Shown one piece after another: positions 6,655 through 64,000 of a DNA stretch of 64,000 bases (position 1 is the stretch's first letter; every line of letters starts with the position of its first letter). Source of the stretch: Apteryx mantelli (Eukaryota > Chordata > Aves > Apterygiformes > Apterygidae); assembly GCF_036417845.1 (NCBI RefSeq), contig NC_090011.1, positions 2,252,726-2,316,725 on the forward strand. Direction: 5' to 3'. The notes under the pieces are model-generated. The model worked only from the letters and a program-made list of their open reading frames with translations, was not told the DNA's origin and ran no database searches. The translations under genes were made by a program, and so were the position numbers.

Positions 6655-9600
6655 ATGGCGGCGGGGGAGCGGGACGGCGGCGCCGCGCGCTCCGCGGGGC
6701 CCCCTCGGAGCCCCCCGGAGCCTCCGCTGTGCCCGGGGGGGGGCGGTGAGAGTCCTCCGTGACCCCCCCGGCCCCCCTTGATGCCGCCGTTGCTCCCCCC
6801 AGACCGCCCCGGAGCCGCCGCCGCTGGTGCTGGCGTTGCAGCGCGGCCGGGTGCTGGTGTGGGGGGCGGCGGCGGCGCGGGCGCTGCGGGAGCGGCACCG
6901 CGTCTCGGGGGTGCTGGTGGGGACCCCCCCGCGGCGCGGCGGCGCCCGCGGCCCCCGCCTGCCCCTGCAGCTGCTGCCGGAGGAAGCCCGGCTGCTGGCC
7001 GAGACCGGCGCCGCCGTCCTCGTGCCCCCCCCGGACCCCGGCGAGGGGCCCCCCCCGGTAAGGGGCGGGGCGGGGGCTATGGGGCACCAAGGGGGCCCTG
7101 AGGGAGGTGGGGGGCTCTGACGTGTCACGGGAAGCGATAAGGGAGTGTAGGCGCAATGGGGGGGCTGTGGGGCAACCATGGGGCAGTGGGAGGGCGCGGG
7201 GGGGGGCTGCAGGGCGTCAAGGAGGCATTAAAGGCTTTGGGGGAGCAACAGGGGTTGGGGGGAGCTGTGGGGCATCGGGGGGGCTGATGGGGGCAAGTGG
7301 AGCTGGGGAGGGGGGGGCTGTCCTGCCCCACAGCATGGTGTGGGGGGGAGGATCCCATGGGGCTGCAGTGTTGTTCTATGGGGTGTGGGGATAGCGGGGG
7401 GGGCTGCTGTGTGGTGGGGCAGATCTGTGGGGCAGGAGCCACGTGCAGGGCTGTGGGGCAGCGCTGTGGGGCAGGATCCATAGGCAGAGCACAGAGCAGG
7501 CTATAGGGCAGGGATGTAGGGCAAAGCCGTGGGGCAGAACTGGGCCTAGGCAGCGGGGCAGGATGAGGGTGGGCTGTGGGGCGGCCGTGGGGCAGCTGTG
7601 GGGCAGCGCTACCCCCCGCAGGCGGCGGAGGCCGCGCGCTACGCGGCTGAGCTGGCCCGGAGCTTCGCGGAGCAGCAGGAAGCGGCCGAGGGGCAGCGGC
7701 AGGCCCAGCTCCAGTGCCTGCCCCCCAACCAGCGCCCCACAGGTGGGGGGGGGGCGGAGGGGACTGGGTGCTGTGGGGCTGGGGGGAGGGGGGTGCTGTG
7801 GGGCTGGTGTTGTGGGGCTCTGTGCTCAGGAGTTTGGGTGCTGTGGGGAGCGTTATGGGGCTGGGGGGGGGGGTGCTATTGGGTTGGGTGCCATGGGGCT
7901 GGGGTAGGGGGCAGCTATGGGGCTGGCAGAGGGACTGTGGGGAAGATATCAGGGTGTCTGGGGGTGCCATGGGGCTGGGTGCTGGGTGGGGGAGCTGTGG
8001 GGCTGGGGGAGGAGCTATGGGGCAGATATCAGGGTGTCCATGTGCGCTATGGGGCTGGGTGGTGCAGCAGGGCAGTATCATGGGGGGGATGCTATGGGGC
8101 TGGGGGCTATAGGGTGAGGGGGGTGCTATGGGGCTGACGTAGGGGTGGCTGTGGGGGCTTTGGGGCTGGGTGCCATGGGGCTGGGTGCTGGCTGGGGGAG
8201 CTGTGGGCCTGGGAGGTGCTGTGGGGCAGGGTGTTGGGGGAGCTATGGGGCTGGGTGCTGTGGGGCTGGGTGCTATGGGGCTGGGTGGGCACCGTGGGGC
8301 TGGTTCCTGGGGGAGCTATGGGGCTGGGTGCCGTGGGGCTGGGTGCTGGGGGGGAGCTATGGGCTTGGGCGGGCGCCGTGGGGCTGGGCGGGCGCCGTGG
8401 GGCGCCCCACACGCCGCTCCCCGCCCCGCAGGCGCCCCCGCCGCGGCGCTGCCCCCCCGGGCGCTGCTGGTGCAGCTCCCCACGGCGCGGGGGGCCCCCC
8501 CGGCGCCGCCCCCCGGCCCCCCGGACTGGGGCCGCCCCGCGCCCCACTGGCCCCACGGCGGCCGCCCCCGGCACGAGCGCCGCTACCGCGTCTACCGCGA
8601 CCTCTGGGCCCGCGGCTTCCACCTCACCGGCGGCGCCAAGTTCGGCGGCGACTTCCTCGTCTACCCCGGTGAGCCGCCGGGGGGCGGGGAGGGGGCAGGC
8701 TGCCGTGGGGCGGGAGGGGGGCAGGCTGCCGTGGGGCAGGGAGGGGGCAGGTCGCCGGGGGGCGGGGAAGGAAGGGGGCGGCCGTGGGGCGGGGAAGGAA
8801 GGGGGCTGCTGTGGGGCAGGGAGGGGAACAGGTTGTTGTGGGGCGGGGGGGGGGTGGGCTGCTGTGGGGCAGAAGGGGGTGCCATGGGACAGGGAAGGAA
8901 GGGGGCTGCTGTGGGGTGGGAGGGGGCAGGTCACCGTGGGGCAGGAGGGGGCTGCTGCCGTGGGGCAGGAAATGAAGGGGGTGGCTGTGGGGCAGGAGGG
9001 GGCAGGTCGCCGTGGGGTGGGGAGGGTGCCATGGGGCAGGGAAGGAAGAGGGCTGCTGTGGGGCAGGGAGGGGGACAGGTTGCTGTGGGGCAGGGAGGGA
9101 GGAGTGGGCCGCTGTGGGGCAGAAGGGGGTGCCATGGGGCAGGGAAGGAAGGGAGCGGCTGTGCGGCAGGAGGGGAGTGGGCTGCCGTGGGGCAGGGATG
9201 TGTGGGGTGGGCTAACAGGCAGGGGGAGATGAAGGGAGACGGGAGGATGTGGGGCGGGAGCAGCTGAAGGGCGTCAGGGTGATGGGGGGCAGCAGCGCGT
9301 GGGGCAGAAGACGCCGCTGTGGGGCAGGGGGAGGCAGGATGCTGGGGGGCAGGAGGAGGTGGGGGGGGCAGGACGTGGGGGGGGAGTGGTTCTGTTGGGG
9401 GGCGGCCGTGGGGCGCTGGGGGGCAGAGGGGGCTGTAGGGGAGGCCCTGGGGCAGTATGGGGTGTCTGTGGGGCGGGGGGGGCCGGGGGGCAGTTGGGGG
9501 GCGCTAGGGGGCAGCCTCGACCCCCCCCAGGCCCCCCGGAGCGGTTCCACGCGGCGGCCGTGGGAAGGGGGCAGTAGGGTGCTATGGGGCGGCTGTAGGG

Positions 9601-11240: not shown

Positions 11241-14200
11241 TCAGACGCTGATGGTGCGGAAGACGGTGAAGCCGGAGAGCGCGGTGGTGAGCAGCAGCCC
11301 GGGGCACTGCGGGTGCCAGTGCAGCTCCTTGAGCTCCGTCTCGCCCTGGTGCACGAAGAGCAGCTGCGGGGGCAGCGCCGCCAGCGCCGCCGCGTCCTCC
11401 TTGTCCTCGTCACCGTCACCGTCGTCCCCCCCGGCGGCCTCGGGGTCCCGCTCCACCGCCAGGTCCCACTGCGTCACCTGGTTGTCGGCGCCCGCCGCTG
11501 CCAGCACCCCGCTCTCCGTGGGGTGCCACTCCACCGAGGTGATGGGCCCCGAGTGCTGCTTGAAGGTGGCCACGCTGGAGCCCGTCTGGGGGGCGAGGGA
11601 GCAGGGGGGGCGTCAGTGGGGCTCTGTGGGGCTGGGGGGGGTCCTATGGGGCTCAAAGGGGGCCCTGTGTGTGGGGGTGTCTCTGTGGGGCCATGGGGGC
11701 AGGGAGGTGCCTCACTGTGCTCTGGGGGGGGCCCATGGGGAGGGGCTCTGTGGGGCAGGGCTGCCGCTGTGGGGCAGCCATAGGGCCAGACCCACCTCCA
11801 TGGGGCACCGCGGGGCAGCCGGACACACCCGGAAGAGGTTGGAGGTTCCAGAGGCGCAGGGCGCCGTGGGGCAGCAGGGAGGAGTCCGTGGGGTGGCCGT
11901 GGGGCAGCTGGACCCATGGGGGGAGCTCCGTGGGGCAGGGGGACGCACCCGGAAGAGGCGGAGGTCCCAGAGGCGCAGGGCGCCGTCGTCGCCGCCGCTG
12001 ACCACGAAGGGGTCGTGGCGGCTCCAGCTGATGACGTTGACGTCGACGGCGGCGCCGTGGGCCGCGGCGGCCGTGAGCATGCAGGAGCGGCCTGGCGGCG
12101 CCCGCACGTCCCACACGCGCAGCGAGGCGTCCGCCGAGCACGAGCAGAACACCTGCGGGGCGGGGACACGGGGGGGGGGGACACGGGGACACCGGGGATA
12201 GGGACATGGGGGGGGGACACGGGGACACGCAAGGGATTGGGACACGGCAGGGAGGAAATGCAGAGGGAAACCAGGGATGAGGATGTGGGGAGGAACATGG
12301 GGGGCGGGGGGGGAGACCAGAGACAGGTACATGGTAGGGGGGGACATGGGGGGGGATGACAGGGACATGGAGGACAAGGACACGGGGACACCAGGGATGG
12401 GGACACAGGGGACATGGGGGGGTGACACAAGAAATGGGGGGGACGCAGGAGGAATGTGAGAAGAGGGAACAAAACGGGACGTGAGAAATGAGACAGAAAA
12501 CAAGAGGGACCGAGGGGAGACGAGGGACAAGGACACGAGAGGCCACCAGGGATGGGGACACATGAAGGACACGGGGGGACACAAGGGATGGGGACACACG
12601 GACACAGGGGACACAGGAGGGACACAAGAGACAAGGACATGTGGACACAGGAGCCGCAAGAAGGGTTGTAAGAGATGGGATGCAACAGGGGACACAAGAT
12701 CACGTGAGCCACGGCCCAGGAGCCCCCATCTGCCCCCCAGCCGCCCCCAGCCCCACGGCCGCCCCCCACGGCGCCCCCAGCCCCACGGCCGCCCCACAGC
12801 CACGGCCACCCCCAGCCCCACGGCCGCCCCCCGGCCGCCCCGCGCACCGAGGGCTCGTTGGGCGACCACTGCAGATCCTCCACGGAGGCCGCGTGGCCCC
12901 GCAGCGGCCGCTGGTCCACGGCCCAGGAGCCTCCGTCCCGCGGCTCCCACAGGTGGATGCGGCTCCGGCAGTCGCCCGACAGCAGCCGGCCTGGGGGGGG
13001 GGCAAAGGGGGAGGGAAGTGACCCACAGCGCAGCCCCCCAACCCCCCCTCCAGCCCCCCCGGGGGCCCCACAGCCCCCTAACGCCCCCCCCCCCAGCATT
13101 CCACTGCCCCCCAACCCTCCCCACAGCCCCCCCCGGTGCCCCATAGCACCCCCACAACCCCCCCAGCACCCCAAAAGCTCCCCAATCTCTCCCCCAGGCC
13201 CCTTGTTTGCCCCACAGAGCCCTGAACACCCATAGAACCCTCCCGATGGCACCCTTGGGTGCCCCCCAGCTCCCTCATCACCCCCCCCAGCACCCCCCAA
13301 GCTCCTCCCCCAGCCCCCCAACCCCCCCCATAGCCCCCCAACAGCCCCCTTGGGTGCCCCACAACACCCCCACAGTAGCCTTAGGTGCCCCATAGGCCCC
13401 CCCAGGCCCCTTGTTTGCCCCACAGAGCCCCAAACCCCCACAGCACCCCCCCGACAGCACCCTCAGGTGCCCCCCAGCTCCCTCATCACCCCCCAGCAGC
13501 CCCCCAAGTCGCCCCCCGGGGCGCTGACCGGGGACGGTGGGGGACCAGTCGAGCGCGAAGCCCTCGGCCATGTGGCCGGCGAAGGCGAAGAGCGGGGCGA
13601 GGGGGGGCTGCTGCCGCGGGGGGGGGGCGCCCCCGGGCCGGGGCTGCGCCAGCGTCGCCAGCGGCCGCCGCAGGTCGAACAGCTCCACCTGCCCCTTCTC
13701 CGACCAGGCCGCCGCCACCGGCGCCTCCCCCAGCTCCGTCGCCTGCGGGGACGCGGCACCGTCGCCCACGGCGGGGGTACAGGGAGGCTGGGGGGGTACG
13801 GGGGGCACGAGGGGGAAATAGGGGTCCCGGGGGGGATATGGGGGCCCAGGGCAGGGGTATGGGGGGGTTGGGGGGAAATAGGGGTCCCGGGGGGAAATAG
13901 GAGTCCCGGGGGGGGATATGGGGGGGCCTGGGGGCCCCGTGGCAGGGGTACAGGGGGGCTGGGGGGGAAATAGGGGTCCCAGGGGGGATACAGGGGTCTG
14001 GTGGGGGGGGAGAGGGGAACACAAGACCATCCCAAAGGGTCCTAGGGCAGATATGGGGGCCCGGGGGGGGAATAGGGGGGTCCAGGGGGGACACAAGACC
14101 GTCCCAAGGGGTCCCAAGGGGGATGCGGGAGGCCTGGGGGGGAGATTTGGGGGTCTTGGGTGGGATGGGGGGGGGCCAGGGGACAGAAAACTGTTGCCAA

Positions 14201-18779: not shown

Positions 18780-29809
<11,030 letters not shown>

Positions 29810-36351: not shown

Positions 36352-38830
<2,479 letters not shown>

Positions 38831-39570: not shown

Positions 39571-39699
39571 GAGAATTTATAAATTTTTCAGCCACCTCCA
39601 CCTGGGGGGGGCTATAAATACAGAGGGCCCAGGCGTCCGGGCCCCACCCCACCCCAGGTGGGCGGGGGTCAGTGCAGTGAGGGGGGGCACTAGGGGGGC

Positions 39700-40590
39700 A
39701 GGGGGATGCCTATGGGGCACCCCATGGGGCTCACCAGGTCACCAGGGCCACCAATGGGGCACCCCATGGGGCTCACAGGGCCACCGGGCCACCAGGGCCA
39801 CCTATGGGGCACCCCATGGGGCTCACAGGGCCACCGGGCACCAGGGCCACCTATGGGGCACCCCATGGGGCTCACCAGGTCACCGGGGTCACCAGGGCTA
39901 CCTATGGGGCATCCCATGGGGCTCATGGGACCACCGGGGCCATCAGGGCTACCTATGGGGCACCCCATGGGGCTCATGGGGCCACCAGGGCCCACCTATG
40001 GGGCATCCCATGGCGCTCACAGGGCCACCAGGGTCACCAGGGCTACCTATGGGGCACCCCATGGGGCTCACGGGGCCACCAGGGCCACCTGTGGGGCACC
40101 CTATAGGGCTGACAGAGCCACCAGGGCCACCCAAGGGACACCCCGCATGGGGCACATGAGCCCTGGGGCCACCCATGGGACACCCCATGGAGCTCACGGT
40201 GCCACCGGGGCCACATGTGGGACCTCCTCTAGGGTTCATGATGCCACCAGGGCCACCCAGGGGACCTCCTATGGGGTTGACGATGCCACCAGGGCCACCT
40301 ATGAGACCTCCTATGAGGCTGACGATGCCGCCAGGGCCACCCGCGAGACCTCCCACGGCGTTGACGGTGCCACCAGGGCCACCCAGTGGACCTCCTATGG
40401 GGTTCCCGGTGCCACCAGCGCCACCCGTGAGACCTGCCACGGGGCCGACGGTGGCAGCGGGACCTCCTACAGGCCGGATGGCGTCACCAGGATCTCCTGT
40501 GAGACCTCCTAGGGGGTCGACGGTGCCACCAGGGCTACCCGTGAGACCTGCCACGGGGCCGACGGTGGCAGCGGGACCTCCCGCGGGGTT
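39700..40590 (-). repeat. Minisatellite spanning the SPIB 3' coding end and UTR
   Basis: Units of roughly 40-65 bp with 'caccccatggggctcac' and 'gccaccagggccacc' towards 39700, grading into 'gacctcctatggggttgacg' towards 40500. On the SPIB strand the frame after the ETS domain stays open through most of the array. Confidence 0.9.
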
Positions 40591-50000: not shown

Positions 50001-53000
50001 ACGCCGTAGGGACCCCACTAGGGACGTGGGGATGCGGCAGGGGACACGGGGACCCCGTTGGGGATGCAGGGATGCGTTGGGGACACCGTTGAGGACACAT
50101 TGGGGACGCAGTGACACATTGGGGACACGGGGGACACGTTGGGACACCGTTGGGGACACGTTGGGGATGCAGTGACACATTGGGGACACGTTGGGGACAC
50201 CGTTGGGGACACATTGGGGATGCAGTGACATGTTGGGGACACGCTGGGGACACGCTGGGGACATCCCCCCCCACCTTCTCGAACTCCAGCTTGATGGGGG
50301 GCGGGAAGTGGCCGGAGACCCAGTCGGCGGCCTGGTGCCCCAGGGCCATCGCCTCGGCCACCGAGGCCACCCCCAGGCGGCACATCACCGAGTCCGTGTC
50401 CCCGTACACCACCTGCGCCGTGGGGGGGGGCACGGGGGGGGCACGGGGGGGTCAGGGGCGCCCCAAAACCCCCGGGACCCCCCCAAAACCCCGGGACCCC
50501 CCAAAACCCCCCAGGATCCCCCAAAACCCCCGGGATCCCCCCAGCCCCCCCAGGCGGCACATCACCGAGTCCGTGTCCCCGTACACCACCTGCGCCGTGG
50601 GGGGGGGGGGGACACGGGGGGGTCAGGGGCACCCCAAGACCCCCGGGACCCCCCCAAAACCCCAGGGCCCCCCCAAGACCCCCCAGACCCCTCCAGGGCC
50701 CCCCCAAAGCCCCCAGACCCCCCCAGGGACCCCCCTGATGCCCCAGAGACCCCCCAGGAGACCCGAGAGCTCCCCAGGGACCCCCAAGACCCCTCCCTGA
50801 CACCCCGGGGCCCCCCCAATCCCCTTGGGGACCCCCCCAAAACCCCAGGGCCCCCCCCCAGACCCCCCGGCCCCCCCCCGGGCCCCCCCCGCGGCACCTT
50901 GGCGTCGGCAGGGAAGCCGTTGGCCAGGCAGTAGTGGCTCTCGATGAGCTGCTTCGTGCGCTCGATCATCTGCCGCCCGAAGCCCGTCACGCTCTGCGGG
51001 GGGACGGGGCGCCGTGGGGGGAGCCGTGGGGCGCCGGGGGGTGCCGTGGGGTGCTATGGGGTGCCATGGGGAGCCGGGGGGGCCGCCGGGGGGCAGGGAC
51101 CCCCCCCCTCCCCGGCTCGGGCGCCCCGGGAAGCCCCAGGGTCTGGCCCAGAAAGTCCCGGCGGGGGGGAGTCCCGGGGCAGGAGGGGGCGGAAAGCCCC
51201 GGCGGCGCCGTGGGGGCAGGGCCGGGGGGCAGGGCGGGGGGGCTGCACCAGGGGGCAGGGCCGTGCCATGGGGCGGCCGTGGGGCAGCCATGGGGCAGGA
51301 CCAGGCCATGGGGCGGCCGTGGGGCAGCCACAGGGCAGCCATGGGGCAGAGCTGCACCATGGGGCAGCCGTGGGGCAGGACCATGAGGCAAAGCTGCGCC
51401 ATGGGGCAGTCACAGGACGGCCGTGGGGCAGGCCCAGGCCGTGGGGCAGTGCCGTGGGGCAGCCGCACCGTGGGGCAGCCATGGGGCCGCCCCGCTGCAG
51501 GGCCGCGCCGTGGGGCAGCTGTGGGGCAGGTCCATGCCGTGGGGCCGTGCTGTGGGGCTGCCCCGCCGTGGGGCAGCTGTGGGGCAGCCGTGGGGCAGCC
51601 GTGGGGCTCACCTAGGAGATGGCGAGGCAGGGCAGGCGCCCGGCCTGGGCGCCGGTGCAGCCGCACTGCGCAGGACAGCTGCACCACGGGGGGGCGGCAG
51701 CGCCGTGGGGCCGCGCCGTGGGGCCGCCCTGCCGTGGGCGCCGTGGGGCAGCCGTGGGGCAGCCGTGGGGCTCACCTGGGAGATGGCGAGGCAGGGCAGG
51801 CGCCCGGCGTGGGCCCCAGAGCAGCTGCACCGCGCAGGACGGCCGTGCCATGGGGGGCGGCAGCGCCGTGAGGCCACGCCATGGGGCAGCCCTGCCGTGG
51901 GGCAGCGCCGTGGGGCAGCCGTGGGGCGCTGTGGGGCTCACCTGGGAGATGGCGAGGCAGGGCAGGCGCCCGGCCCGGGCCCCGGTGCAGCCGCACCGTG
52001 CAGGACGGCCGCGCCGCGGGGGCAGCAGCGCCGTGGGGCAGCGCCGTGGGGCAGCCCTGCCATGGGGCACCGTGGGGCGCAGCGCCGTGGGGCAGCCGTG
52101 GGGCAGCCGTGGGGCTCACCTGGGAGATGGCGAGGCAGGGCAGGCGCCCGGCCCGGGCCCCGGTGCAGCCCCACTGCGCAGGACAGCTGCGCCGCGGGGG
52201 GCAGCAGCGCCGTGGGGCAGCGCCGTGGGGCAGCCCTGCCGTGGGGCAGCGCCGTGGGGCAGCCGTGGGGCTCACCTGGGAGATGGCGAGGCAGGGCAGG
52301 CGCCCGGCCCGGGCCCCGGTGCAGCCGCACCGTGCAGGACGGCCGCGCCGCGGGGGGCAGCAGCGCCGTGGGGCAGCGCCGTGGGGCAGCCCTGCCATGG
52401 GGCACCGTGGGGCAGCGCCGTGGGGCAGCCGTGGGGCAGCCGTGGGGCTCACCTGGGAGATGGCGAGGCAGGGCAGGCGCCCGGCCCGGGCCCCGGTGCA
52501 GCCCCACTGCGCAGGACAGCTGCGCCGCGGGGGGCAGCAGCGCCGTGGGGCAGCGCCGTGGGGCAGCCCTGCCGTGGGGCACCGTGGGGCAGCCGTGGGG
52601 CAGCCGTGGGGCAGCCGTGGGGCTCACCTGGAGATGGCGAGGCAGGGCAGGCGCCCGGCCTGGGCGCCGGTGAAGCCGTACACCGAGTTGGCGCTGACCT
52701 TGAGCGCCTGCTGCCGCCCGTCCAGCACCTGGCGCCGGAAGGGGTCGCGCTCCTGCGCCAGCTCCGCCTTGGCCCTGCGCACCGGACCCACGGCTGCCCC
52801 ACGGCGACGCCGCCCCACGGCGCTGCCGCCCCACGGCGACGCCCCACGGCGACGCCGCCCCACGGAACAGCCCCGCTCCTGGGCATCCCGCAAACGCCCC
52901 CGTGGACCTGCCCCACGGGGACCTCGCTGCTGCCCCATAGGGTCCCACTGCCCCATAGGGAACTTCTCCTGCCCCATAGGGACCCCACGGCCCCATAGGG

Positions 53001-56000
53001 ACCCCCAACTCACCCCAAACCCACCCCGCGGGGACCCCAACACCTCCCTGGAGACCCCAAACCCACCCCACAGCGCCCCCAGACCCCCCTGGGACCCCCA
53101 AACCTGCCCATGGCGCCCCCAGACCCCCCTGGGACCCCCAAACCTGCCCCACAGGGACCCCAAACCCACTGGGGACCCCGAACCTGCCCCACGACGCCCC
53201 CCACACCCCCCTGGGACCCCCCAAACCCACCCCACGGCACCCCGAGAGCCCCCGGGACGTGCAAACCTGCCACCACAGGGACCCCAAACCCACCCCAAAC
53301 CTGCCCCGTGGGACCTCCAAACCCGCCCCACGGCCCCCCACACACTCCCAGGACCCCCCGAACCCGCCCCATGGCGCCCCGGGACCCCCCCACGCCCCCC
53401 CCCACGCCCCGTGGGGCAGCCCCACCTCTTGCGGGCGGCCAGCAGCCCCTCGAGCACCTCGGGCAGCAGCGCCTGGCGCAGCCGGGACCCCCCCGGGGAC
53501 CCCCCGAACCTGCCCCACGGCGCCCCACGCCCCCCGGGACCCCCCCACGCCCCCCCCCCCGGGCCCCGTGGGGCAGCCCCACCTCTTGCGGGCGGCCAGC
53601 AGCCCCTCGAGCACCTCGGGCAGCAGCCCCTTGCGCACCGAGGCCTTGACGAAGAGGTCGCCCGTGGGCGTGCGGATGAAGTCGTCGGGGCCCAGGCTGG
53701 GGGGGGTCGGGGGGGCCACGGTGACCCACGGCGCCCCCTAACTGCCCCCCGCTGGCCCCACGGCGCCCCCCGAGTGCCCCCCGCCGGCCCCACAGCGCCC
53801 CCCGAGTGCCCCCTGCCAGCCCCACGGCGCCCCCTAACTGCCCCCCGCCGGCCCCACAGCGCCCCCCGAGTGCCCCCTGCCAGCCCCACGGCGCCCCCTA
53901 ACTGCCCCCCGCCGGCCCCACAGTGCCCCCCGAGTGCCCCCCGTCGGCCCCACGGCGCCCCCCGAGTGCCCCCTGCCAGCCCCACGGCGCCCCCCTAACT
54001 GCCCCCCGCCGGCCCCACGGTGCCCCCCGAGTGCCCCCCGCCAGCCCCACGGCGCCCCCCAAGTGCCCCCCGCCAGCCCCACGGCCCCCCGAATTCCCCC
54101 CCCAAGCGCCCCAGGGCTTCCCCCAGTGCCCCCAGGTTCACCCCAGTCCCTCCCAGTGCCTCCCAGTACCCCCCCAGTGTCCCCTGGTCCCCCCCCAGCC
54201 CTGCCCCAGTGCCCCCCAGTCCCTCCCCGTATTCCCCAGCACCCCCCAGTCACCACTCTGGTGTCCCCTGGTCCCCCCCAGTCCCTCCCAGTGCCCCCCA
54301 GTTCCTCCAGTGCTTCCCAGTCACCACCCCAGTCTCCCCCAGTGCCCCCCAGTTCCTCCCAGTGACCACCCAGTCTCCCCCGGTCCCTTCCAGTGCCCCC
54401 CAGTGCTTCCCAGTTACCACCCCAGTGCTCCCCGGTCCCTCCCCATATTCCCCAGTCTCCCCCAGTTCCTCCCAGTGCCCCCCAGTGCTTCCCAGGCACC
54501 ACCCCCAGTGCCCCCCAGTGCCCCCCAGCGCCCGCCGTGCGCAACCCGTAGCGCTCGGGGCCGCCGGGCGGCAGCAGGGTGGTGTAGCAGAGGTTGTGCG
54601 CCATCATGATGGAGGGGTACAGCGAGGAGAAGTCCAGCGTCACGATGGGGGGTGTCGTAGTACCTGGGGGCGCGGGGACGTCACCGGGGGGGGGGGCGCG
54701 GGGGGACGGGGGGGACACGGGGACGGGACGCCAGGGCCCCCGCTCACCCCTTGAGCGGCTCGATGACGGTGGCCCCCTCGTAGTCCTCGCCGCCCTCCGG
54801 CTTCACCACGGGCATCACCAGGTCCTGCTTCATGGCCTGCGGGGCGGCGGGGGTGGGCGCGGGGCGTCCCCGAGGTCCCTTGCGGTGGCCCCGGCACCGG
54901 CCCCGGGCCCCCAGGCCCCTTGCGGTGGCCCCGCGGCCCCGTCTCCATGTCCCTGTTCCTCCAGGTCCCTCCTGGTGGCCCCACGGCCCCGTCTCCACGT
55001 CCCTGTTCCTCCAGGTCCCTCCTGGTGGCCCCACGGCCCCGTCTCCACGTCCCTGTTCTCCAGGTCCCTCCTGGTGGCCCTGTATCCCCATCCCCATGTC
55101 CCTGTTCCTCCAGGTCCCTCCTGGTGGCTCTGTATCTCCATCCTCACATCCCTGTTCCTCCAGGTCCCCATCTCCACGCCCCTGTTCCTCCAGGTCCCTC
55201 CTGGTGGCCCCACGGCCCCATCTCCACGCCCCTGTTCCTCCAGGTCCCCGTCCCCACGTCCCCACGTCCCCGGCTGACCTGGCGCAGGAGCTGGGAGACC
55301 ACCTTGACCTGCTGCCCCCGGGCCAGCAGGTAGCCGAGGGGGACGCCGGTGACGCGCGCCATCTCCACGTAGTTCACCACGCACATGAGCTTCTCCAGGA
55401 GCCGCAGCGGCAGGAAGGCGTCCTTGAGGCAGTAGACGGCCAGGCGGCGCCGCGTCTGCTCCGAGCCGTTCTGGGGACGCGTTTCGGGGGGGGACGGGGG
55501 ACGGACGTCAGGGAGGCGGCGGGGGGGGACACGTGGGACCCCCCAGGACCCCCCCGGCCGGACGCCGGGGCCCACCTGCAGGTCGGTGATGATGGAGTGC
55601 TGCACGTCCTCCTTCTGCTCCTGCAGGAAGTGGTAGCTGACGGCGTTGAGCGTGTAGGAGCGCAGCTTGTGCTCCCGCAGCAGCACCTGCGCCAGCGGGG
55701 GGGGGGAGGGGGGACACGGGGACAGTCACCGTGGCCCCCCCGCCTCAGTCTGTCCCCCCCCCGTGTCACCACCAAGTCCCCCCCGATACCTGGAGGAGGT
55801 CGAAGCGGAGCGGTTCAACCGAAGGGGGGTTGAAATGCCCTTGCGTGGGGACCCCCCGTGTCCGTGTCCCCCCCCCCGTGTCTGTGTCCCCCCCGTGTCC
55901 ATGTCCCCCCCATGTCTGTGTCCTCCCCCATGTCCGTGTCCCCCCCGTATCTGTGTCCCCACCGTGTCTGTGTCCCCGCTGTATCTGTGTCCCCCCATGT

Positions 56001-59000
56001 CCGTGTCCCCGCCGTGTCCGTGTCCCCCCGTGTCCGTGTCCCCGCCGTGTCCGTGTCCCTGCCGTGTCCGTCTCCCCCCGTGTCCGTGTGCCCCCCGTGT
56101 CCGTGTCCGTACCTGGAGGAGGTCGAACTGCACGCGCCCCTCCATGGTGACCACGCGGTTCTCGCGCCGGCCCAGCTGCCGCGACTGGAAGGAGGCGTCG
56201 CGCAGCACCGAGCGCCGGCCCCGCACCCGCCCCAGCAGTGCGAACGACTCCACCTGGGGGGGGGGGGGGGCGAGAGATGGGGGCGCCGGGGCAGGAACCG
56301 CCCCGACGGGGGGCAGGAACCGCCCCGGGGGGGGCTGGGGGGGCGCCGGGGCAGGAACCGCCCCGACGGGGGGCAGGAACCGCCCCGGGGGGGGCGAGAG
56401 ATGGGGGGCGCCGGGGCAGGAACCGCCCCGGGGGGGGCTGGGGGGGTGCCGGGGCAGGAACCGCCCCAATGGGGGGCAGGAACCGGCCCCGGGGGGGGCG
56501 CCGGGGCAGGAACCGCCCCAACGGGGGGCAGGAACCGGCCCCAGTGGGGGCAAAAGGGCCCAAGGACTCTGCCTAGGGGCCTGTGGGGCGGCCGTGGGGC
56601 AGGTTGGGCGGCCGTGGGGCTGTGAGGGCCAGGGGTTGGCCGTGGGGCGGGCGCGGGGGCTATGGGGAGGCTATGGGGGGGGTAAGGGGCCGTGGGGCGG
56701 CCGTGGGGCGGCCGTGGGGCGGGCACGGGGGCCGTGGGGCGGCCGTGGGGCAGGGTACCTTGAGCACCTGGGCGCGCTGCATCAGGTAGGGCAGGCGGCG
56801 GGGGCGGGGGGGCGGCGGGGCGCTGCGGGGGCGCCATGGGGCGGGCACGGGGGCCGTGGGGGGGCCGTGGGGGGGCCGTGGGGTGCCGTGGGGCAGCCGT
56901 GGGGCGGCCGTGGGGCGGCCGTGGGGCAGGGTACCTTGAGGACCTGGGCGCGCTGCAGCAGGTAGGGCAGGTCGAAGTTCTGGATGTTGTAGCCCGTGAC
57001 GATGTCGGGGTCCACGACGCGCACGAACTCGGCCCAGGCCTGGGGGGGGGTCGGGGGGGGTCAGGGGGTGCTGGGGACCCCCCAGGGACCCCCCCGAAAC
57101 CTCCAGGGACCCCCCCTGCCCCCCCAGGGCACCCAAAGACCCCCAGGGACTCCCCAAAACCCCCAGGGACCCCCACAGCCCCCCCAGGGCACCCAAAGAC
57201 CCCCAGGGACCCCCCAAAACCCCCAGGGACCCCCCCAGCCCCCCCAGGGCACCCAAAGACCCCCAGGGACCCCCCAAAACCCCCAGGGACCCCCACAGCC
57301 CCCCCAGGGCACCCAAAGACCCCCAGGGAACCCCCAAAACCCCCAGGGACACCCACAGCCCCCCCAGGGCACCCAAAGATCCCCAGGGCCCCCCTCAGGG
57401 TTCATCCCAGGCCCCCCTGGAGCCCCCCCCCCGTGTCCCCCAGACCCCCCTGAGCCCCCCCAGGGCCCCCCCCAGGCCCTCAGGCCCCCCCAGGACCCCC
57501 CCAGAGCCCCCCAGAGCCCCCCAGGACCCCCCCAGCCCCCCCAGGGACCCCCCAGAGCCCCCCCGGGACCCCCCCGGCCCCCCCGGGCACCTGGAGCAGC
57601 TCCTCCTCGCGCTGGAAGCAGAGCACCTGGGAGCCCAGGATGGGGGCGCAGGTGCCCAGGGCGAAGACGGCGCGGATGAAGGGCTCGCGCTCGCCCTGCC
57701 GCAGCACCACGCCGGCCACCTGGATCACCGGGTCCTGCTCGGGCTCCGGGAACACGCCTGCGGGCGGCACGGTGAGGACCGGATCCCACCGGATCCCACC
57801 GGATCCCGCCAGATCCCCCTGGACCCCCCCAGACCCCCCAGGCCGCAGCACCACGCCGGCCACCTGGATCACCGGGTCCTGCTCGGGCTCCGGGAACACG
57901 CCTGCGGGCGGCACGGTGAGGAACGGATCCCACCGGATCCCACCGGATCCCGCCAGATCCCCCTGGACCCCCCCAGACCCCCCAGGCCGCAGCACCACGC
58001 CGGCCACCTGGATCACCGGGTCCTGCTCGGGCTCCGGGAACACGCCTGCGGGCGGCACGGTGAGGACCGGATCCCACCGGATCCCACCGGATCCCGCCAG
58101 ACCCCCCCGGAGCCCCCCAGATCCCCCAGGCCGCAGCACCACGCCGGCCACCTGGATCACCGGGTCCTGCTCGGGCTCCGGGAACACGCCTGCGGGCGGC
58201 ACGGTGAGGAACGGATCCCACCAGATCCCACCGGATCCCGCCAGATCCCCCTGGACCCCCCCAGACCCCCCAGGCCGCAGCACCACGCCGGCCACCTGGA
58301 TCACCGGGTCCTGCTCGGGCTCCGGGAACACGCCTGCGGGCGGCACGGTGAGGACCGGATCCCACCGGATCCCACCGGATCCCGCCAGATCCCCCTGGAC
58401 CCCCCCAGACCCCCCAGGCCGCAGCACCACGCCGGCCACCTGGATCACCGGGTCCTGCTCGGGCTCCGGGAACACGCCTGCGGGCGGCACGGTGAGGACC
58501 GGATCCCACCGGATCCCACCGGATCCCGCCAGATCCCCCTGGACCCCCCCAGACCCCCCAGGCCGCAGCACCACGCCGGCCACCTGGATCACCGGGTCCT
58601 GCTCGGGCTCCGGGAACACGCCTGCGGGCGGCACGGTGAGGAACGGATCCCACCGGATCCCACCGGATCCCGCCAGATCCCCCTGGACCCCCCCAGACCC
58701 CCCAGGCCGCAGCACCACGCCGGCCACCTGGATCACCGGGTCCTGCTCGGGCTCCGGGAACACGCCTGCGGGCGGCACGGTGAGGACCGGATCCCACCGG
58801 ATCCCACCGGATCCCGCCAGACCCCCCCGGAGCCCCCCAGATCCCCCAGGCCGCAGCACCACGCCGGCCACCTGGATCACCGGGTCCTGCTCGGGCTCCG
58901 GGAACACGCCTGCGGGCGGCACGGTGAGGAACGGATCCCACCAGATCCCACCGGATCCCGCCAGATCCCCTGGACCCCCCCAGACCCCCCAGGCCGCAGC

Positions 59001-62000
59001 ACCACGCCGGCCACCTGGATCACCGGGTCCTGCTCGGGCTCCGGGAACACGCCTGCGGGCGGCACGGTGAGGACCGGATCCCACCGGATCCCACCGGATC
59101 CCGCCAGATCCCCCTGGACCCCCCCAGACCCCCCAGGCCGCAGCACCACGCCGGCCACCTGGATCACCGGGTCCTGCTCGGGCTCCGGGAACACGCCTGC
59201 GGGCGGCACGGTGAGGACCGGATCCCACCGGATCCCACCGGACTTCCCCGGATTCCCCCCAGAGCTCCCCTGGATCCCGCCGGACCCCCTTGGAGTCGTC
59301 CGACCCCCCCCCACCGCCCTCCTGCCCCCCGAAAGCCTCCTGAGCCCCTAAACTGCCCCAGCTTCCTCCTGCTCCAATTACCCCCCTCCAGGCCCCCTTC
59401 TTGCCCCCTTCCTGCCCCCCCAGCCCCCCTCCTACTCTATTGCCCCCCTCCTGCCCCCCATTGCCCGTTCTGCCCCTCTCCTGCCCCCATTGCCCCCTTC
59501 CTGCCCCTTATTGCCCCCCTTGCTCCCCATTACCCTCCCCAGCCCCAAAGTGCCCCTGCTGCCCCCCATTGCCCCCTTCCTGCCCCCCTCTCACTCCTAT
59601 TGCCCCCTTCCTGCCCCTGTTTGCCCCCCGGCCCCCGTTTACCCTCCTTGGCCCCTGTTTGCCCCTCTCCTGCTCCCCATTTCCCCCCCCGGCCCTGTTC
59701 GCCCCCTTCCTGCACCTGTTGCTCCCCCCTGGCCCCCGTCTGCCCCCTTCCTGCCCCTATTTACCCCTCCTGCTCCCCCCTGTTCGCCCCCCCCAGCCCC
59801 ATTTGCCCCCCCCCCAGCGCCGTACCCTTGCGGCCGGCGCACTCGATGTCGAAGCTGAGCAGGCGCAGGGGGGCCAGGCGCTGCCAGGCGCCCTCGGGGG
59901 GGGGGGGCTGCCGAATGCCCCCCCAGCCCCCCTGTTTGCCCCCCCGGCCCCGTTTGCCCCCCCCCCCGGCGCCGTACCCTTGCGGCCGGCGCACTCGATG
60001 TCGAAGCTGAGCAGGCGCAGGGGGGCCAGGCGCTGCCAGGCGCCCTCCGGGGGGGGGGGGGGTGGCTGCCGAATGCCCCCCCAGCCCCCCTGTTTGCCCC
60101 CCCCGGCCCCGTTTGCCCCCCCCAGCCCCGTTTGCCCCCCCCCCCCGGCGCCGTACCCTTGCGGCCGGCGCACTCGATGTCGAAGCTGAGCAGGCGCAGG
60201 GGGGCCAGGCGCTGCCAGGCGCCCTCGGGGGGGGGGGTGGCTGCCGAATGCCCCCCCCCAGCCCCCCTGTTTGCCCCCCCCGGCCCCCCCGTTTGCCCCC
60301 CCCGGCCCCGTTTGCCCCCCCCCGGCGCCGTACCCTTGCGGCCGGCGCACTCGATGTCGAAGCTGAGCAGGCGCAGGGGGGCCAGGCGCTGCCAGGCGCC
60401 CTCGGGGGGGGGGGGGCTGCCGAATGCCCCCCCAGCCCCCCTGTTTGCCCCCCCCGGCCCCGTTTGCCCCCCCCCGGCCCCGTTTGCCCCCCCCCGGCGC
60501 CGTACCCTTGCGGCCGGCGCACTCGATGTCGAAGCTGAGCAGGCGCAGGGGGGCCAGGCGCTGCCAGGCGCCCTCGGGGGGGGGGGCTGCCGAATGCCCC
60601 CCCAGCCCCCCTGTTTGCCCCCCCCGGCCCCCCTGTTTGCCCCCCCCGGCCCCGTTTGCCCCCCCCCGGCGCCGTACCCTTGCGGCCGGCGCACTCGATG
60701 TCGAAGCTGAGCAGGCGCAGGGGGGCCAGGCGCTGCCAGGCGCCCTCGGGGGGGGGGGGCTGCCGAATGCCCCCCCGGCCCCCCTGTTTGCCCCCCCAGC
60801 CCCCCTGTTTGCCCCTCCCAGCCCCGTTTGCCCCCCCCGGCCCCGTTTGCCCCCCCCCGGCGCCGTACCCTTGCGGCCGGCGCACTCGATGTCGAAGCTG
60901 AGCAGGCGCAGGGGGGCCAGGCGCTGCCAGGCGCCCTCGGGGGGGGGGGGGCTGCCGAATGCCCCCCCAGCCCCCCTGTTTGCCCCCCCGGCCCGTTTGC
61001 CCCCCCCCCCGGCGCCGTACCCTTGCGGCCGGCGCACTCGATGTCGAAGCTGAGCAGGCGCAGGGGGGCCAGGCGCTGCAGGCGCCCTCCGGGGGGGGGG
61101 GGGTGGCTGCCGAATGCCCCCCCAGCCCCCCTGTTTGCCCCCCCGGCCCCGTTTGCCCCCCCAGCCCCGTTTGCCCCCCCCCGGCGCCGTACCCTTGCGG
61201 CCGGCGCACTCGATGTCGAAGCTGAGCAGGCGCAGGGGGGCCAGGCGCTGCCAGGCGCCCTCGGGGGGGGGGGTGGCTGCCGAATGCCCCCCCCCAGCCC
61301 CCCTGTTTGCCCCCCCCGGCCCCCCCGTTTGCCCCCCCCGGCCCCGTTTGCCCCCCCCCGGCGCCGTACCCTTGCGGCCGGCGCACTCGATGTCGAAGCT
61401 GAGCAGGCGCAGGGGGGCCAGGCGCTGCCAGGCGCCCTCGGGGGGGGGGGGCTGCCGAATGCCCCCCCAGCCCCCCTGTTTGCCCCCCCCGGCCCCGTTT
61501 GCCCCCCCCCCGGCCCCGTTTGCCCCCCCCCGGCGCCGTACCCTTGCGGCCGGCGCACTCGATGTCGAAGCTGAGCAGGCGCAGGGGGGCCAGGCGCTGC
61601 CAGGCGCCCTCGGGGGGGGGGGGCTGCCGAATGCCCCCCCAGCCCCCCTGTTTGCCCCCCCCGGCCCCCCTGTTTGCCCCCCCCGGCCCCGTTTGCCCCC
61701 CCCCGGCGCCGTACCCTTGCGGCCGGCGCACTCGATGTCGAAGCTGAGCAGGCGCAGGGGGGCCAGGCGCTGCCAGGCGCCCTCGGGGGGGGGGGGCTGC
61801 CGAATGCCCCCCCGGCCCCCCTGTTTGCCCCCCCAGCCCCCCTGTTTGCCCCCCCCAGCCCCGTTTGCCCCCCCCGGCGCCGTACCCTTGCGGCCGGCGC
61901 ACTCGATGTCGAAGCTGAGCAGGCGCAGGGGGGCCAGGCGCTGCCAGGCGCCCTCGGGGGGGCGGCTCTCGAACGCCGTCCAGGCCACGTCGGCCTCCAG

Positions 62001-64000
62001 CTGGCAGAGGGTGGCGCGGGGGGCCCCGCGGGGGGGGCCCCGCCGCCGCCGCCCCCCCGTCCCCCCCCCGCAGCCGGTACTGCCCCGCCGGCAGCTCCAC
62101 CCAGCTGCAGCCCACCACCTCGCGGTCCACCATGAACCTGGCGCCGGAGAGCGGCGGCGTGGGGGCGCGGAGCCGGGGGGCGGCGCGGCGGCGTGGGGGG
62201 CAGGAGCGGGGGGATGGGGGGGGCGGGGGGGACGGGGGGCAGGAGCAGCAGGATGTGGGGAGCAGGAGGGGGGGGACAGGGGCAGAACCGGGGGGCAGAA
62301 CCGGGGAATGTGGGGGTCGGGGGGGGCAGGGGGGGCAGGACTGGGGGGCAGGAGCAGGCAGCGCGGCAGGGTGGGGGGCAGGAGCAGGGGGGACGGGGGG
62401 CACCGCGAGGGGGACGGGGGGCAGAATCAGGGGGGCAGGAGAAGCACGATGGGGGGGTCGGGGGGGTCGGGGGGCAGGAGCAGGGGGCAGGAGCGGGGGG
62501 GACGGGGGGCAGGAGCTGGAGAGGCCCTGGGGGTGGATGGGGGGGGCCCTGGGGGTTAGTTTGGGCCCTGAAAGGTGCAGTTTGGCCCCGGGGGGGCAGT
62601 TTAGGGGCCCAGAGCAGTTTGGGAACCCTGGGGGGGGCAGTTGAGACCCTCGGGGGGCAGTTTGGGGACCCTGGGGGCAATTTTGGGCCCCGAGGGGGGG
62701 CGCTTGGGGGGGCAGGGGCAGTTCAGGGATCCCAGGGGGCATCTGGGACCTGGGGCAGGGAGCAGTTTGGACCCCAGGGGAGGGCAGGGGGGGCAGTTTA
62801 GACCCCAGGGGGGCAGTTTGGGACCCCGGGGGGGGGGCAGGGGGCAGTTTGGGACCCCGGGGGCGGGGGGGGGGGGCAGTTTGGGACCCCAGGGCAGGCG
62901 GGGCAGTTTGGGACCCCAGGGGAGGGCAGAGGGGGCAGTTTAGACCCCAGGGGGGGCAGTTTGGGACCCCGGGGGAGGAGGGGGGGCAGTTTGGGACCCC
63001 GGGGAGGGGTGGGGCAGTTTGGGACCCCGGGGCAGAGCGGGGGGGGGCAGCGCGGGGGCCCCCACCTGATCTCGAAGTCGATGTTGGCCTCGAAGGGGGG
63101 GGCGGGCTGCACCCCCAGCGCCCCCCAGCGCAGCCCCTGCTCCAGCAGCCGCCGCGCCGGCGCCACGAGCCGCGGCAGCGCCAGCAGCACCCGCACGAAG
63201 GCGCCGCGCCGCTGCCCCCGGTACCCCAGCATGCCTGGGGGGGGCAGAACGGCGTGGGGGGGGCAAAAACGGCGTGGGGGGGGGGCAACACGGCTCCGGG
63301 GGGGGCAAAAACGGCGGGGGGGGGGCGAAAACGGCGCCACGAGCCGCGGCAGCGCGCAGCAGCACCCGCACGAAGGCGCCGCGCCGCTGCCCCCGGTACC
63401 CCAGCATGCCTGGGGGGGGGCAGAACGGCGTGGGGGGGGGGCAACACGGCGTGGGGGGGGGCAAAAACGGCAGGGGGGGCAAAAAACGGCGGGGGGGGGC
63501 GAAAACGGCGCCACGAGCCGCGGCAGCGCCAGCAGCACCCGCACGAAGGCGCCGCGCCGCTGCCCCCGGTACCCCAGCATGCCTGGGGGGGGGCAACACG
63601 GCGTGGGGGGGGGGGGCAACACGGCGTGGGGGGGGGCAACACGGCTCGGGGGGGGCAAAAACGGCGGGGGGGGGCAAAAAAACGGCGCCACGAGCCGCGG
63701 CAGCGCCAGCAGCACCTGCACGAAGGCGCCGCGCCGCTGCCCCCGGTACCCCAGCATGCCTGGGGGGGGGGGCAGAACGGCGTGGGGGGGGGGCAGAACG
63801 GCGTGGGGGGGGGGGCAGAACGGCGTGGGGGGGCAACACGGCTCGGGGGGGGGGGCAAAAAACGGCGTGGGGGGGGCGAAAACGGCGCCACGAGCCGCGG
63901 CAGCGCCAGCAGCACCCGCACGAAGGCGCCGCGCCGCTGCCCCCGGTACCCCAGCATGCCTGGGGGGGGCAACACGGCGTGGGGGGGGGGCAACACGGCG
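44008..64000 (-). CDS. POLD1: POLD1 (DNA polymerase delta catalytic subunit), all but the first exons
   Basis: B-family replicative polymerase with proofreading exonuclease, the catalytic core of Pol delta on PCNA. Twenty-one exons are visible, from 63066-63234 (human residues about 190 onward) to 44008-44103. All landmarks appear in order: Exo I FDIEC, Exo [11 protein letters not shown], Exo III YCLKDAF, Pol motif [12 protein letters not shown], motif [13 protein letters not shown], motif C YGDTDS, CysA (CVGC, CDFC) and CysB (CQRC, CTSRDC). Five exons (61886-62137, 54546-54663, 52628-52774, 48156-48257, 44008-44103) are each one base out of the frame set by their neighbours. Most introns carry minisatellites or copies of the adjacent exon edge. 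The N-terminal exons lie right of the window. SPIB follows on the same strand, as in human. Confidence 0.96.
44110..44650. repeat. POLD1 last-intron minisatellite
   Basis: Units of 12-30 bp, 'gacatcagggacagcgttgg' and 'cgggggatgttggggac', about twenty copies. Confidence 0.88.
44990..45565. repeat. POLD1 intron with CCCAGGCGTCCGG core repeats
   Basis: About thirteen units of 40-65 bp, each 'aggggcccaggcgtccgggg' plus a C/T-rich spacer. Confidence 0.88.
45625..46536 (-). repeat. Copies of the POLD1 CysA-exon donor end (four extra)
   Basis: The 3' end of exon 46537-46650 with its donor ('gctcaccgtcgcggggcagc') recurs at about 45953, 46109, 46264 and 46399. Each is followed by 'agggcccaggctgggcaggg' and a G-rich spacer with 'gtttttggggtcccccc'. 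Unit about 135-155 bp. 45625-45950 is a G-rich lead-in. Confidence 0.92.
46780..47323 (-). repeat. Copies of the POLD1 exon 47324-47456 donor end (two extra)
   Basis: 'gtcgctcacgcagcaggac' plus about 35 bases of exon sequence recurs at about 46950-47000 and 47135-47190. Unit about 185 bp with spacer 'ggggggtcccgggggg'. Confidence 0.9.
47540..48130. repeat. POLD1 intron minisatellite
   Basis: Short units such as 'gtgtccccagggtcccccca' and 'cagtgtccctgctgcccccc', 12-45 bp, with higher-order blocks of about 180 bp. Confidence 0.85.
48280..48650 (-). repeat. Copy of the POLD1 exon 48651-48803 donor end
   Basis: A second copy of 'ggggtgtcacctctcggcca' with the next 35 bases of exon lies at about 48460-48515. 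The interval is filled with 'tttttgggtccccgttt' units. Confidence 0.88.
48840..49379 (-). repeat. Two copies of the POLD1 exon 49380-49555 donor end
   Basis: 'caccggtcgacgaggaggcg' continuing to 'caggcaggtggcga' recurs at about 49068-49105 and 49221-49260. The two spacers ('ccccaggcaccacgaccccc') are nearly identical. Unit about 155 bp. Confidence 0.92.
49560..49735 (-). repeat. Copy of the POLD1 exon 49380-49555 acceptor end
   Basis: The first roughly 62 bases of the exon with its acceptor ([20 protein letters not shown]) recur at about 49647-49710. The exon therefore has junction copies on both sides. Confidence 0.93.
49740..50274. repeat. POLD1 intron repeats
   Basis: C-rich to 49880, then units of 'ggggacacgttggggacacc' and 'gatgcagtgacacattgggg' to 50270. 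Confidence 0.85.
50414..50897 (-). repeat. Copy of the POLD1 motif C exon acceptor end
   Basis: At about 50549-50595 the acceptor and first roughly 40 bases of exon 50275-50412 recur, encoding [13 protein letters not shown], including both catalytic aspartates. Spacer repeats are 'ccccccaaaacccccggga'. Unit about 183 bp. Confidence 0.92.
51000..51612. repeat. POLD1 intron repeats
   Basis: Units of 'ccgtggggcagccatggggc', about 12-25 bp, from about 51260. The first part is ordinary GC-rich intron. Confidence 0.8.
51613..52627 (-). repeat. Copies of the POLD1 motif B exon donor end (six extra, XYXY order)
   Basis: The donor and last roughly 50-60 bases of exon 52628-52774 recur with starts near 51608, 51772, 51938, 52115, 52272 and 52448. 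Unit about 157-177 bp. The copies at 51938 and 52272 share 'ccgcaccgtgcaggacggcc'; those at 52115 and 52448 share 'ccccactgcgcaggacagct', giving XYXY. Five of the six copies read ATCTCCCAG before the donor, the expected I-S-Q end, whereas the full exon reads ATCTCCAG. Confidence 0.93.
52780..53560 (-). repeat. POLD1 intron with a copy of exon 53583-53696's donor end
   Basis: 52980-53420 is C-rich with 'cccccctgggacccccaaac' units. At 53425-53480 'cacctcttgcgggcggccag' to 'cctcgggcagcagcg' copies the donor end of the exon. Unit about 155 bp. Confidence 0.88.
53730..54545. repeat. Two adjoining POLD1 intron minisatellites
   Basis: 53730-54090: units of about 43 bp, 'ccccacggcgccccccgagt' and 'gccccccgccggccc'. 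54110-54540: units of about 20 bp, 'cccagtgccccccagttcct'. Confidence 0.88.
54890..55278. repeat. POLD1 intron minisatellite, about 62 bp
   Basis: Seven units with 'ccctgttcctccaggtccct' and 'cctggtggccccacggcccc'. Confidence 0.88.
55700..56112. repeat. POLD1 intron repeats with a partial exon-end copy
   Basis: 'acctggaggaggtcgaa' at about 55789-55806 copies the donor end of exon 56113-56253. 55860-56110 is a 12-18-bp array of 'ccgtgtccgtgtccccc'. Confidence 0.8.
56270..56934 (-). repeat. POLD1 intron repeats with a copy of exon 56935-57039's donor end
   Basis: 56275-56540: 'gcaggaaccgccccgacggg' units. At about 56752-56795 'gggtaccttgagcacctggg' and the next 20 bases copy the donor end of the Exo II exon, about 180 bp from the true donor. 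The rest is 'gccgtggggcgg'. Confidence 0.85.
57050..57415. repeat. POLD1 intron minisatellite, 60-bp unit
   Basis: Five almost identical 60-bp units: 'gggcacccaaagacccccag', 'aaaacccccagggaccccc'. It is followed by C-rich sequence to 57590. Confidence 0.9.
57758..59230 (-). repeat. POLD1 exon-acceptor array (ten extra copies), ABCDA higher-order repeat
   Basis: The acceptor and first roughly 62 bases of exon 57591-57757 ([18 protein letters not shown]) recur ten times to about 59204, mean unit 144.7 bp. Spacer types read from the true exon outwards are A, B, C, D, A, A, B, C, D, A plus an edge unit. A has 'gaggaccgg'; B and D have 'gaggaacgg'; D also has 'ccaccagatccc'; C has 'cagacccccccggagccccc'. 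So a five-monomer block of about 725 bp is duplicated. Confidence 0.95.
59240..59815. repeat. POLD1 intron C-rich repeats between two exon arrays
   Basis: Loose units of 'cccccttcctgcccccattg', 15-30 bp. No exon is seen. Confidence 0.75.
59820..61885 (-). repeat. POLD1 Exo I exon array (twelve extra copies) with six-monomer higher-order repeat
   Basis: The last roughly 72 bases of exon 61886-62137 with its donor recur twelve times, each encoding [20 protein letters not shown] and AGRKG. 'actcgatg' starts at 59843, 59993, 60172, 60349, 60521, 60693, 60884, 61036, 61208, 61385, 61557 and 61730; the true exon is at 61903. Spacings run 150,179,177,172,172,191 then 152,172,177,172,173,173. Units 2 and 8 share 'cctccggggg'; units 3 and 9 share 'gggtggctgccgaatgcccc'. 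Two six-monomer blocks of about 1.03 kb are implied. Confidence 0.95.
62150..63065. repeat. POLD1 intron G-rich repeats
   Basis: 62150-62520: 'ggggggcaggagcagg' units. 62560-63050: units of about 28-35 bp, 'gggcagtttgggaccccggg'. Confidence 0.85.
63235..64000 (-). repeat. POLD1 exon-acceptor array (four extra copies), continues off the right edge
   Basis: The acceptor and first roughly 73 bases of exon 63066-63234 ([25 protein letters not shown]) recur near 63340-63410, 63510-63583, 63686-63760 and 63888-63961. Unit about 176 bp, spacers 'ggggggcaacacggcgtggg' and 'ggggcgaaaacggcg'. The array is still running at the window edge. Confidence 0.93.

Follow-up and report, generated by a model that had tools for sequence, protein, structure and literature searches.

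Exon stuttering on a dot-like chromosome of another bird genome, with exon edges that look like bystanders of intron instability

Tandem repetition in and around genes is familiar in several forms. Minisatellites (VNTRs) are GC-rich arrays arranged head to tail, in which units tens to hundreds of bases long have variants in common, and in tandem exon duplication it is coding exons that are duplicated in tandem. The closest described system is exon stuttering, or sequence stuttering, a class named in chicken dot chromosomes (Hron et al. 2026, Genome Biol Evol, PMC12954441). According to the main text of that article, exon stuttering in chicken concerns 115 genes and 236 introns, 190 of these introns being on dot chromosomes; more than 90% of the sources lie at most 1 base from an exon border, length varies between individuals, and expansions are seen in some other birds too. 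Replication stress in GC-rich DNA and meiotic recombination are both raised there as possible triggers. Among the titles and abstract openings listed by our literature searches, we found no description of exon stuttering predating this article.

The stretch of DNA analysed here (64,000 bases, hereafter the window) corresponds to positions 2252726-2316725 of contig C34 (NC_090011.1), which has 2,665,363 bases and belongs to an assembly of 1.504 Gb in 408 contigs. The avian origin of this assembly is supported by two globin exons, an alpha exon on C16 and a beta exon on C1, which match solved hemoglobins; the best single-chain entries (3a59, from ostrich, 1a4f and 3wr1 for alpha, 3eok and 3a59 for beta) are hemoglobins of birds, although for alpha six entries with two matched stretches score higher. 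A sequence-only reading of the window had reported tandem arrays made of exon-intron junctions and knew of no named class of this kind in birds; such a class, exon stuttering, was named in 2026 (PMC12954441). Compared with the main text of that article, the window matches each testable defining feature of exon stuttering; the kind is already known, and the window is a further case of it, in another bird genome. As in chicken, partial exon copies with their splice sites are found in tandem in the adjacent intron, the source abutting the exon border; the introns are repeat-rich and the chromosome is small and GC-rich, C34 being dot-like by its size and by the GC content and repeats of the window; and copies are absent from paralogues on other chromosomes (here 0/18 GRIN2 loci and 0/8 loci of the PRMT1 paralogue). 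The exon part of the copies measures 20-187 bp in chicken and 21-77 here, and the copies number 1-44 and 1-12, respectively. The two cases differ in that another bird is concerned, unless this assembly was among those examined by the authors of the chicken study, and in that a comparison of exon edges with introns is added here. Stuttering is also denser here, in 14 out of 38 introns as against 190 out of 5,572 annotated dot-chromosome introns in chicken, the two sets differing in annotation and in the choice of genes. Neither POLD1, GRIN2D nor PRMT1 is mentioned in the main text of the chicken article. With minisatellites, the present arrays share a head-to-tail arrangement, GC richness and variants common between units, but their units are partly coding, carry a splice site and adjoin a live exon, and the distance from copy to copy in the exon-edge arrays, 119-268 bases, is longer than usual. 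As for tandem exon duplication, coding exons are involved in both cases, but here one edge is copied and no whole exon (15 cases).

The GC content varies from 0.64 to 0.80 along the window (2-kb bins), and tandem repeats make up 57% of it. Searches by tblastn with human proteins placed TSEN34 on the plus strand and the other genes on the minus strand, namely GRWD1, GRIN2D, PRMT1 (by its 5′ end) and POLD1, the last of which continues beyond the right end of the window. The exon models comprise 21 exons for the part of POLD1 in the window, 11 for GRIN2D, 7 for GRWD1 and 2 of the exons of TSEN34. Splice junctions were scored by a script and then completed by hand, and rival splice choices were dropped before counting. 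Eight of the 21 POLD1 junctions were set by hand, one of them by merging two matches in different frames into one exon, as were the acceptor of the first in-window POLD1 exon, the GRIN2D acceptor at 22739 and the first GRWD1 junction. In TSEN34, the start of the exon that ends at 8668 is uncertain and was left out as an edge. In POLD1, a G run takes the place of the pyrimidine tract ahead of the acceptor of exon 44859-44956 (44957-44985, minus strand).

To inventory the copies, exons were compared with introns by blastn-short, on the same strand only, with the published cut-off (at least 42.1 bits over a length of at least 20). This strict screen of POLD1, GRIN2D, GRWD1 and TSEN34 gave 50 partial exon copies, derived from 15 exon edges (9 donors and 6 acceptors) and located in 14 of the 38 introns. 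All 50 sit in the intron adjoining their source exon, with no match in non-adjacent introns of the same gene, and nothing exceeded the cut-off in five shuffles of the introns, where the best score was 34.2 bits as against 42.1. The exons and their copies are as follows.

63066..64000, minus strand: POLD1 exon 63066-63234 with 4 upstream copies (acceptor and 77 exon bases); array 63158-64000, unit about 175-200
59826..61962, minus strand: donor edge of POLD1 exon 61886-62137 with 12 copies (last 77 bases and donor); unit about 172, exon parts 97-100% identical
57591..59242, minus strand: POLD1 exon 57591-57757 with 10 upstream copies (acceptor and first 60 bases); unit 144, exon part 100% identical
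56759..56971, minus strand: donor edge of POLD1 exon 56935-57039 with 1 copy (last 37 bases and donor)
53426..53637, minus strand: donor edge of POLD1 exon 53583-53696 with 1 copy (last 55 bases and donor)
51615..52676, minus strand: donor edge of POLD1 exon 52628-52774 with 6 copies (last 48 or so bases and donor)
50370..50589, minus strand: acceptor edge of POLD1 exon 50275-50412 with 1 copy (first 43 bases and acceptor)
49071..49707, minus strand: POLD1 exon 49380-49555 with copies on both sides, 1 of the acceptor (60 bases, 49648-49707) and 2 of the donor (34 bases, 49071-49259)
48468..48693, minus strand: donor edge of POLD1 exon 48651-48803 with 1 copy (last 43 bases and donor)
45958..46557, minus strand: donor edge of POLD1 exon 46537-46650 with 3 copies (last 21 bases and donor)
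23333..23537, minus strand: donor edge of GRIN2D exon 23506-23735 with 1 copy (last 32 bases and donor)
21511..21991, minus strand: GRIN2D exon 21511-21698 with 2 upstream copies (acceptor and first 49 bases)
11830..11986, minus strand: donor edge of GRWD1 exon 11949-12152 with 1 copy (last 38 bases and donor)
9521..10228, plus strand: last exon of TSEN34 (from 10056) with 4 upstream copies (acceptor and about 33 bases); array 9521-10088, unit 129/263

The arrays are head-to-tail, with 1-12 copies per edge, and in each of the 15 cases of the strict screen one edge alone is copied and never a whole exon. The copied source lies at most 1 base from the exon border in 14 of the 15 edges; for the remaining one, that of POLD1 exon 52628-52774, the match stops 2 bases short of the edge, at a place where 5 of the 6 copies differ by one base. 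The exon part has a median of 43 bases over the 15 edges, and its range, like that of the spacer (74-137 bases in 8 arrays, the first interval in the array at 45958-46557, of 247 bases, being set aside), is close to the 20-80 exon and 70-120 intron bases given by the sequence-only reading. That reading had also counted at least seventeen junctions, donors and acceptors alike, and both points stand: a test with 80-base junction-centred windows finds 17 in-window edges with copies (12 in POLD1, 3 in GRIN2D, 1 in GRWD1 and 1 in TSEN34), whereas the strict screen retains 15, of both types. Copies on both sides had been announced for several exons; POLD1 exon 49380-49555 is such an exon, and the strict screen gives no second one. 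Likewise, out of at least five genes announced, four are found strictly in the window (POLD1, GRIN2D, GRWD1 and TSEN34), and the fifth, PRMT1, counts through its full gene, outside the window. Since several genes are affected, the proposal that recurrence across unrelated genes reflects a regional process, and not a single accident, is borne out.

It had further been proposed that a local mechanism repeatedly uses exon edges as one boundary of the unit, and that the edges of tandem repeats should coincide with exon edges in excess. The data go the other way on both points. The units cross the edge, which lies within them, and their breakpoints fall inside the intron on one side and 21-77 bases into the exon on the other. 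A tandem duplication that crosses one edge keeps the exon whole and leaves the fragment in the intron, and for this reason the coding part of any copy ends at the exon edge. When points were scored for a copy within 2.5 kb (34 matches out of 40), 13 of 75 edges (0.17) had one, as against 0.42 for intron-interior and 0.05 for exon-interior points (3,000 of each) and 0/400 shuffled controls; the order of edges, introns and exons is the same at match thresholds from 30 to 38. In 30-base windows, the repeat share goes from 0/33 at 80 bases inside the exon to 0.19 at the edge, and on the intron side it is 0.13 ten bases in and 0.40-0.49 from 60 bases on, so that this distance profile across exon edges has no peak at the edge. 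Matching that is sensitive to gaps next to C and G tracts, or a better retention of exon bases, would fit the small dip at ten intron bases. With gap-tolerant 80-base windows and the five genes taken together, 20 of the 92 edges are crossed, where 50.0 would be expected from intron points of the same genes: a deficit of edge-crossing repeats of about 2.5-fold, and not an excess. By gene, the counts are 12/41 for POLD1 (intron rate 0.67, p 7e-7), 3/20 for GRIN2D (0.49, p 0.002) and 3/17 for the full PRMT1 locus (0.55, p 0.002); taken alone, GRWD1 (1/12, intron rate 0.16, p 0.40) and TSEN34 (1/2, intron rate 0.67, p 0.56) have no significant deficit. Over GRWD1, GRIN2D, PRMT1 and POLD1, edge matches rise with the repeat density of the introns, the edges of TSEN34 being too few for such a comparison. 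We also simulated random duplications barred from falling inside or covering an exon. The ratio of edge to intron-point crossing per simulated event was 0.83 for POLD1, 0.96 for GRIN2D and 0.94 for GRWD1, and the observed ratio, 0.4, is far below these values, even if a ratio per event is not strictly the same quantity as a counted one. The point test, the distance profile and the 80-base-window count being all against it, targeting of edges is rejected for these genes, and exon edges look like bystanders of intron instability, not its target.

Another claim was that the copies keep the splice site and the exon edge far better than the spacer. Pairwise identity is 0.94-1.00 for exon parts and 0.88-0.99 for spacers, with the exon part higher in 6 of 8 arrays; it falls below the spacer in the donor array of POLD1 exon 49380-49555 and in TSEN34. 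With gaps and homopolymers removed, the 7 arrays of a column count have 5 variable exon columns out of 257 and 28 variable spacer columns out of 215 (Fisher p about 2e-6, the columns being non-independent); one of the 7 arrays has the opposite direction, one is tied at zero, and two supply 22 of the 28 variable spacer columns. Arrays with fewer than three copies were left out of both comparisons, and TSEN34 is in the pairwise comparison and absent from the column count; for the array at 45958-46557, the first interval was omitted from spacer identity and the source copy from the column count. The choice of arrays rested on exon similarity, and simple repeats make up many of the spacers, a bias that inflates the contrast between exon and spacer. 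The difference in variable columns thus agrees with the claim, which is weakened by this detection bias and by the two arrays going the opposite way, and the proposal that selection or gene conversion preserves the edges is suggestive only. A canonical splice dinucleotide is present in 46/46 copies of the 14 edges outside TSEN34, with a lenient check for donors, and in TSEN34 2 of the 4 copies have no AG at the home position. By eye, the copies carry some amino-acid-changing substitutions.

The 144-bp array of POLD1 deserves separate description. Its 10 copies of the 60-base part of exon 57591-57757 are identical to the live exon, and among 8 units compared (out of 10 copies and the source) none of the 60 exon columns and 6 of the 84 intron columns vary. 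Units 1 and 6 of these 8 have four variants in common, a pattern that block duplication or conversion would produce. The array appears to be young or to have been homogenised recently; its 600 copied exon bases show zero differences, and if the neutral rate is taken as 2e-9 per site per year, it would be younger than about 2.5 million years. The unit equals 48 codons and is stop-free in the frame of the exon (57480-59507, minus strand). This frame is open upstream through the acceptor array, with a shift of one base in the two outermost copies. If a decoy acceptor of this array were used, the protein could become longer in frame.

Elsewhere in the genome, we screened exon loci of paralogues together with 1.5 kb on each side; the names of the paralogues are those suggested by the matches. 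Matches outnumbered loci in these searches (37, 38 and 24 matches). For GRIN2, 24 of 30 loci were screened, 6 weaker matches on other chromosomes being left out, and for PRMT 19 of 20, the one omitted being the PRMT1 fragment of the window itself. On C34, adjoining copies are found at 2/6 GRIN2D loci and 2/5 PRMT1 loci. Copies were found at 0/18 exon loci of three GRIN2 paralogues (C1, C16 and C19), at 0/8 exon loci of a PRMT8-like paralogue of PRMT1 on C1, at 0/6 other methyltransferase loci (C4, C36 and C44), at 0/29 glycogen-phosphorylase exon loci on C3 and C4 and at 0/1 PYGM-like exon locus on C188, PYGM being taken as a further gene of dot chromosomes. One C4 locus reaches a GC content of 0.72 without copies, with flanks poor in tandem repeats; therefore, high GC alone is insufficient.

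PRMT1 itself is present in the window as a fragment only.

36353..37666, minus strand: 5′ fragment of PRMT1 with two exons, next to a stretch of 200 N; in inverted orientation, 96.7% identical to the 5′ region of the full gene

This fragment of 1.3 kb matches C34:2340.5-2341.8 kb, within the full PRMT1 locus, and the full gene (C34:2340.5-2346.5 kb, on the opposite strand) is about 50 kb away from it. The N run and the fragment together span 36152-37666. Either a false duplication or join error or a genuine inverted duplication may lie behind the fragment. No high-identity second copy is seen for the neighbouring sequence, 37700-39200, and the two exons of the fragment have no further copies above 35 bits within 33000-40000. 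The segment 36698-36740 matches the acceptor edge of exon 3 of the full gene at 93%, exon 3 itself being absent there. By the strict screen, the full gene has two edges with copies, and for one of these the score just equals the cut-off. Frame breaks are seen in POLD1 exons, in or near homopolymer runs, at 62018-62068, 54620-54663, 52625-52640 and 48156-48257, and at the donor of POLD1 exon 52628-52774 the live exon differs by one base from 5 of the 6 intronic copies. These frame breaks and this one-base difference are probably consensus errors. Together, the POLD1 frame breaks and the PRMT1 fragment beside the N run suggest that the assembly is imperfect at the level of bases and of joins.

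The explanation that we hold to be likely, with good confidence, is that introns on an avian dot-like chromosome are regionally unstable and that the copies form the fringe of this instability that overlaps exons. Units tens to a few hundred bases long would be duplicated in tandem at positions that ignore gene structure, and the arrays would then grow, shrink and homogenise by slippage, unequal exchange or conversion. From the geometry of the copies, a unit straddling one edge would keep the exon whole and leave a splice site and an exon end in the intron, where they could be tolerated and amplified, while selection would remove duplications that fall within an exon or span a whole one. The deficit at edges would probably mean either that decoy splice sites are mildly harmful or that duplication starts preferentially in low-complexity intron sequence. 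Some observations speak against such a fringe. Exon columns vary less than spacer columns (5/257 versus 28/215), unlike what simple neutral decay would give, although detection bias and simple-repeat spacers may explain this; the profile is not perfectly smooth, with 0.19 at the edge versus 0.13 ten intron bases in; and neither GRWD1 nor TSEN34 has a significant deficit of its own. A plain trigger by G4 structures was also considered within the window and is unsupported, the density of G4 motifs having a median of 10.7 per kb in introns with stuttering and in those without. An edge-directed mechanism, in which splice-site-linked R-loops, nucleosome edges or transcription-coupled repair, for example, would repeatedly duplicate exon edges, could account for the recurrence in several genes, at donors and acceptors alike, and for a copied part that reaches to within 2 bases of the edge in 15/15 cases. 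But tandem duplication imposes this abutment by its geometry, the exon stretch that is copied ranges from 21 to 77 bases, no peak is seen at the edge, and repeats cross intron points 2.5 times as often as edges; we count such a mechanism as already refuted for the five genes together and regard it as extremely improbable.

Compared with this fringe of intron instability, it is unlikely that selection or conversion keeps the copied edges, either by maintaining decoy splice sites or through repeated conversion of the copies by the live exon. The lower variability of exon columns and the canonical dinucleotides in all 46 copies outside TSEN34 (leniently checked for donors) are what this would predict, but the copies were found through exon similarity and are a biased sample, two arrays supply most of the variable spacer columns, the trend is reversed in the POLD1 49380-49555 donor array and in TSEN34, amino-acid-changing substitutions occur among the copies, and AG is missing at the home position in half of those of TSEN34. 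A more specific version, in which the copied edges are unusually intact since the live, selected exon keeps converting the copies, or the copies keep reseeding the exon, is quite doubtful; if true, the arrays would be local reservoirs of splice sites and exon ends, both repairing and disturbing the gene. Finally, an assembler could have made or miscounted tandem copies in GC-rich sequence. The N run with the inverted near-copy of PRMT1 5′ sequence and the apparent frame breaks at homopolymers in POLD1 exons point in that direction. The arrays are confirmed as present in the assembly, in many separate introns, with copies that have diverged in several arrays and with distinct variants common to array units, and the same pattern in chicken PHF8 was checked against raw nanopore reads, according to the main text of the chicken article (PMC12954441). 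An artefact is on these grounds very unlikely, but copy numbers in the arrays may be wrong.

The window supports the occurrence of exon stuttering beyond chicken; POLD1 is among the essential genes concerned, and paralogues within the same genome serve as a control. That edges are under-hit relative to their own introns is a point that we have not found in PMC12954441; therefore ‘exon’ stuttering is probably a spill-over of intron instability filtered by selection and not a process aimed at exons. The comparison of edge with intron crossing is a simple count, applicable to any complete bird genome.

Two minor observations may be added. An array with a 93/186-bp unit lies at 3428-4103, upstream of TSEN34. 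In the search of phosphorylase genes, the N-terminal part only of a PYGM-like gene (query positions 1-81) was found, at C188:76182-76425, and the rest of this gene on C188 may be missing from the assembly; for two other phosphorylase genes, on C3 and C4, most of the length was recovered.
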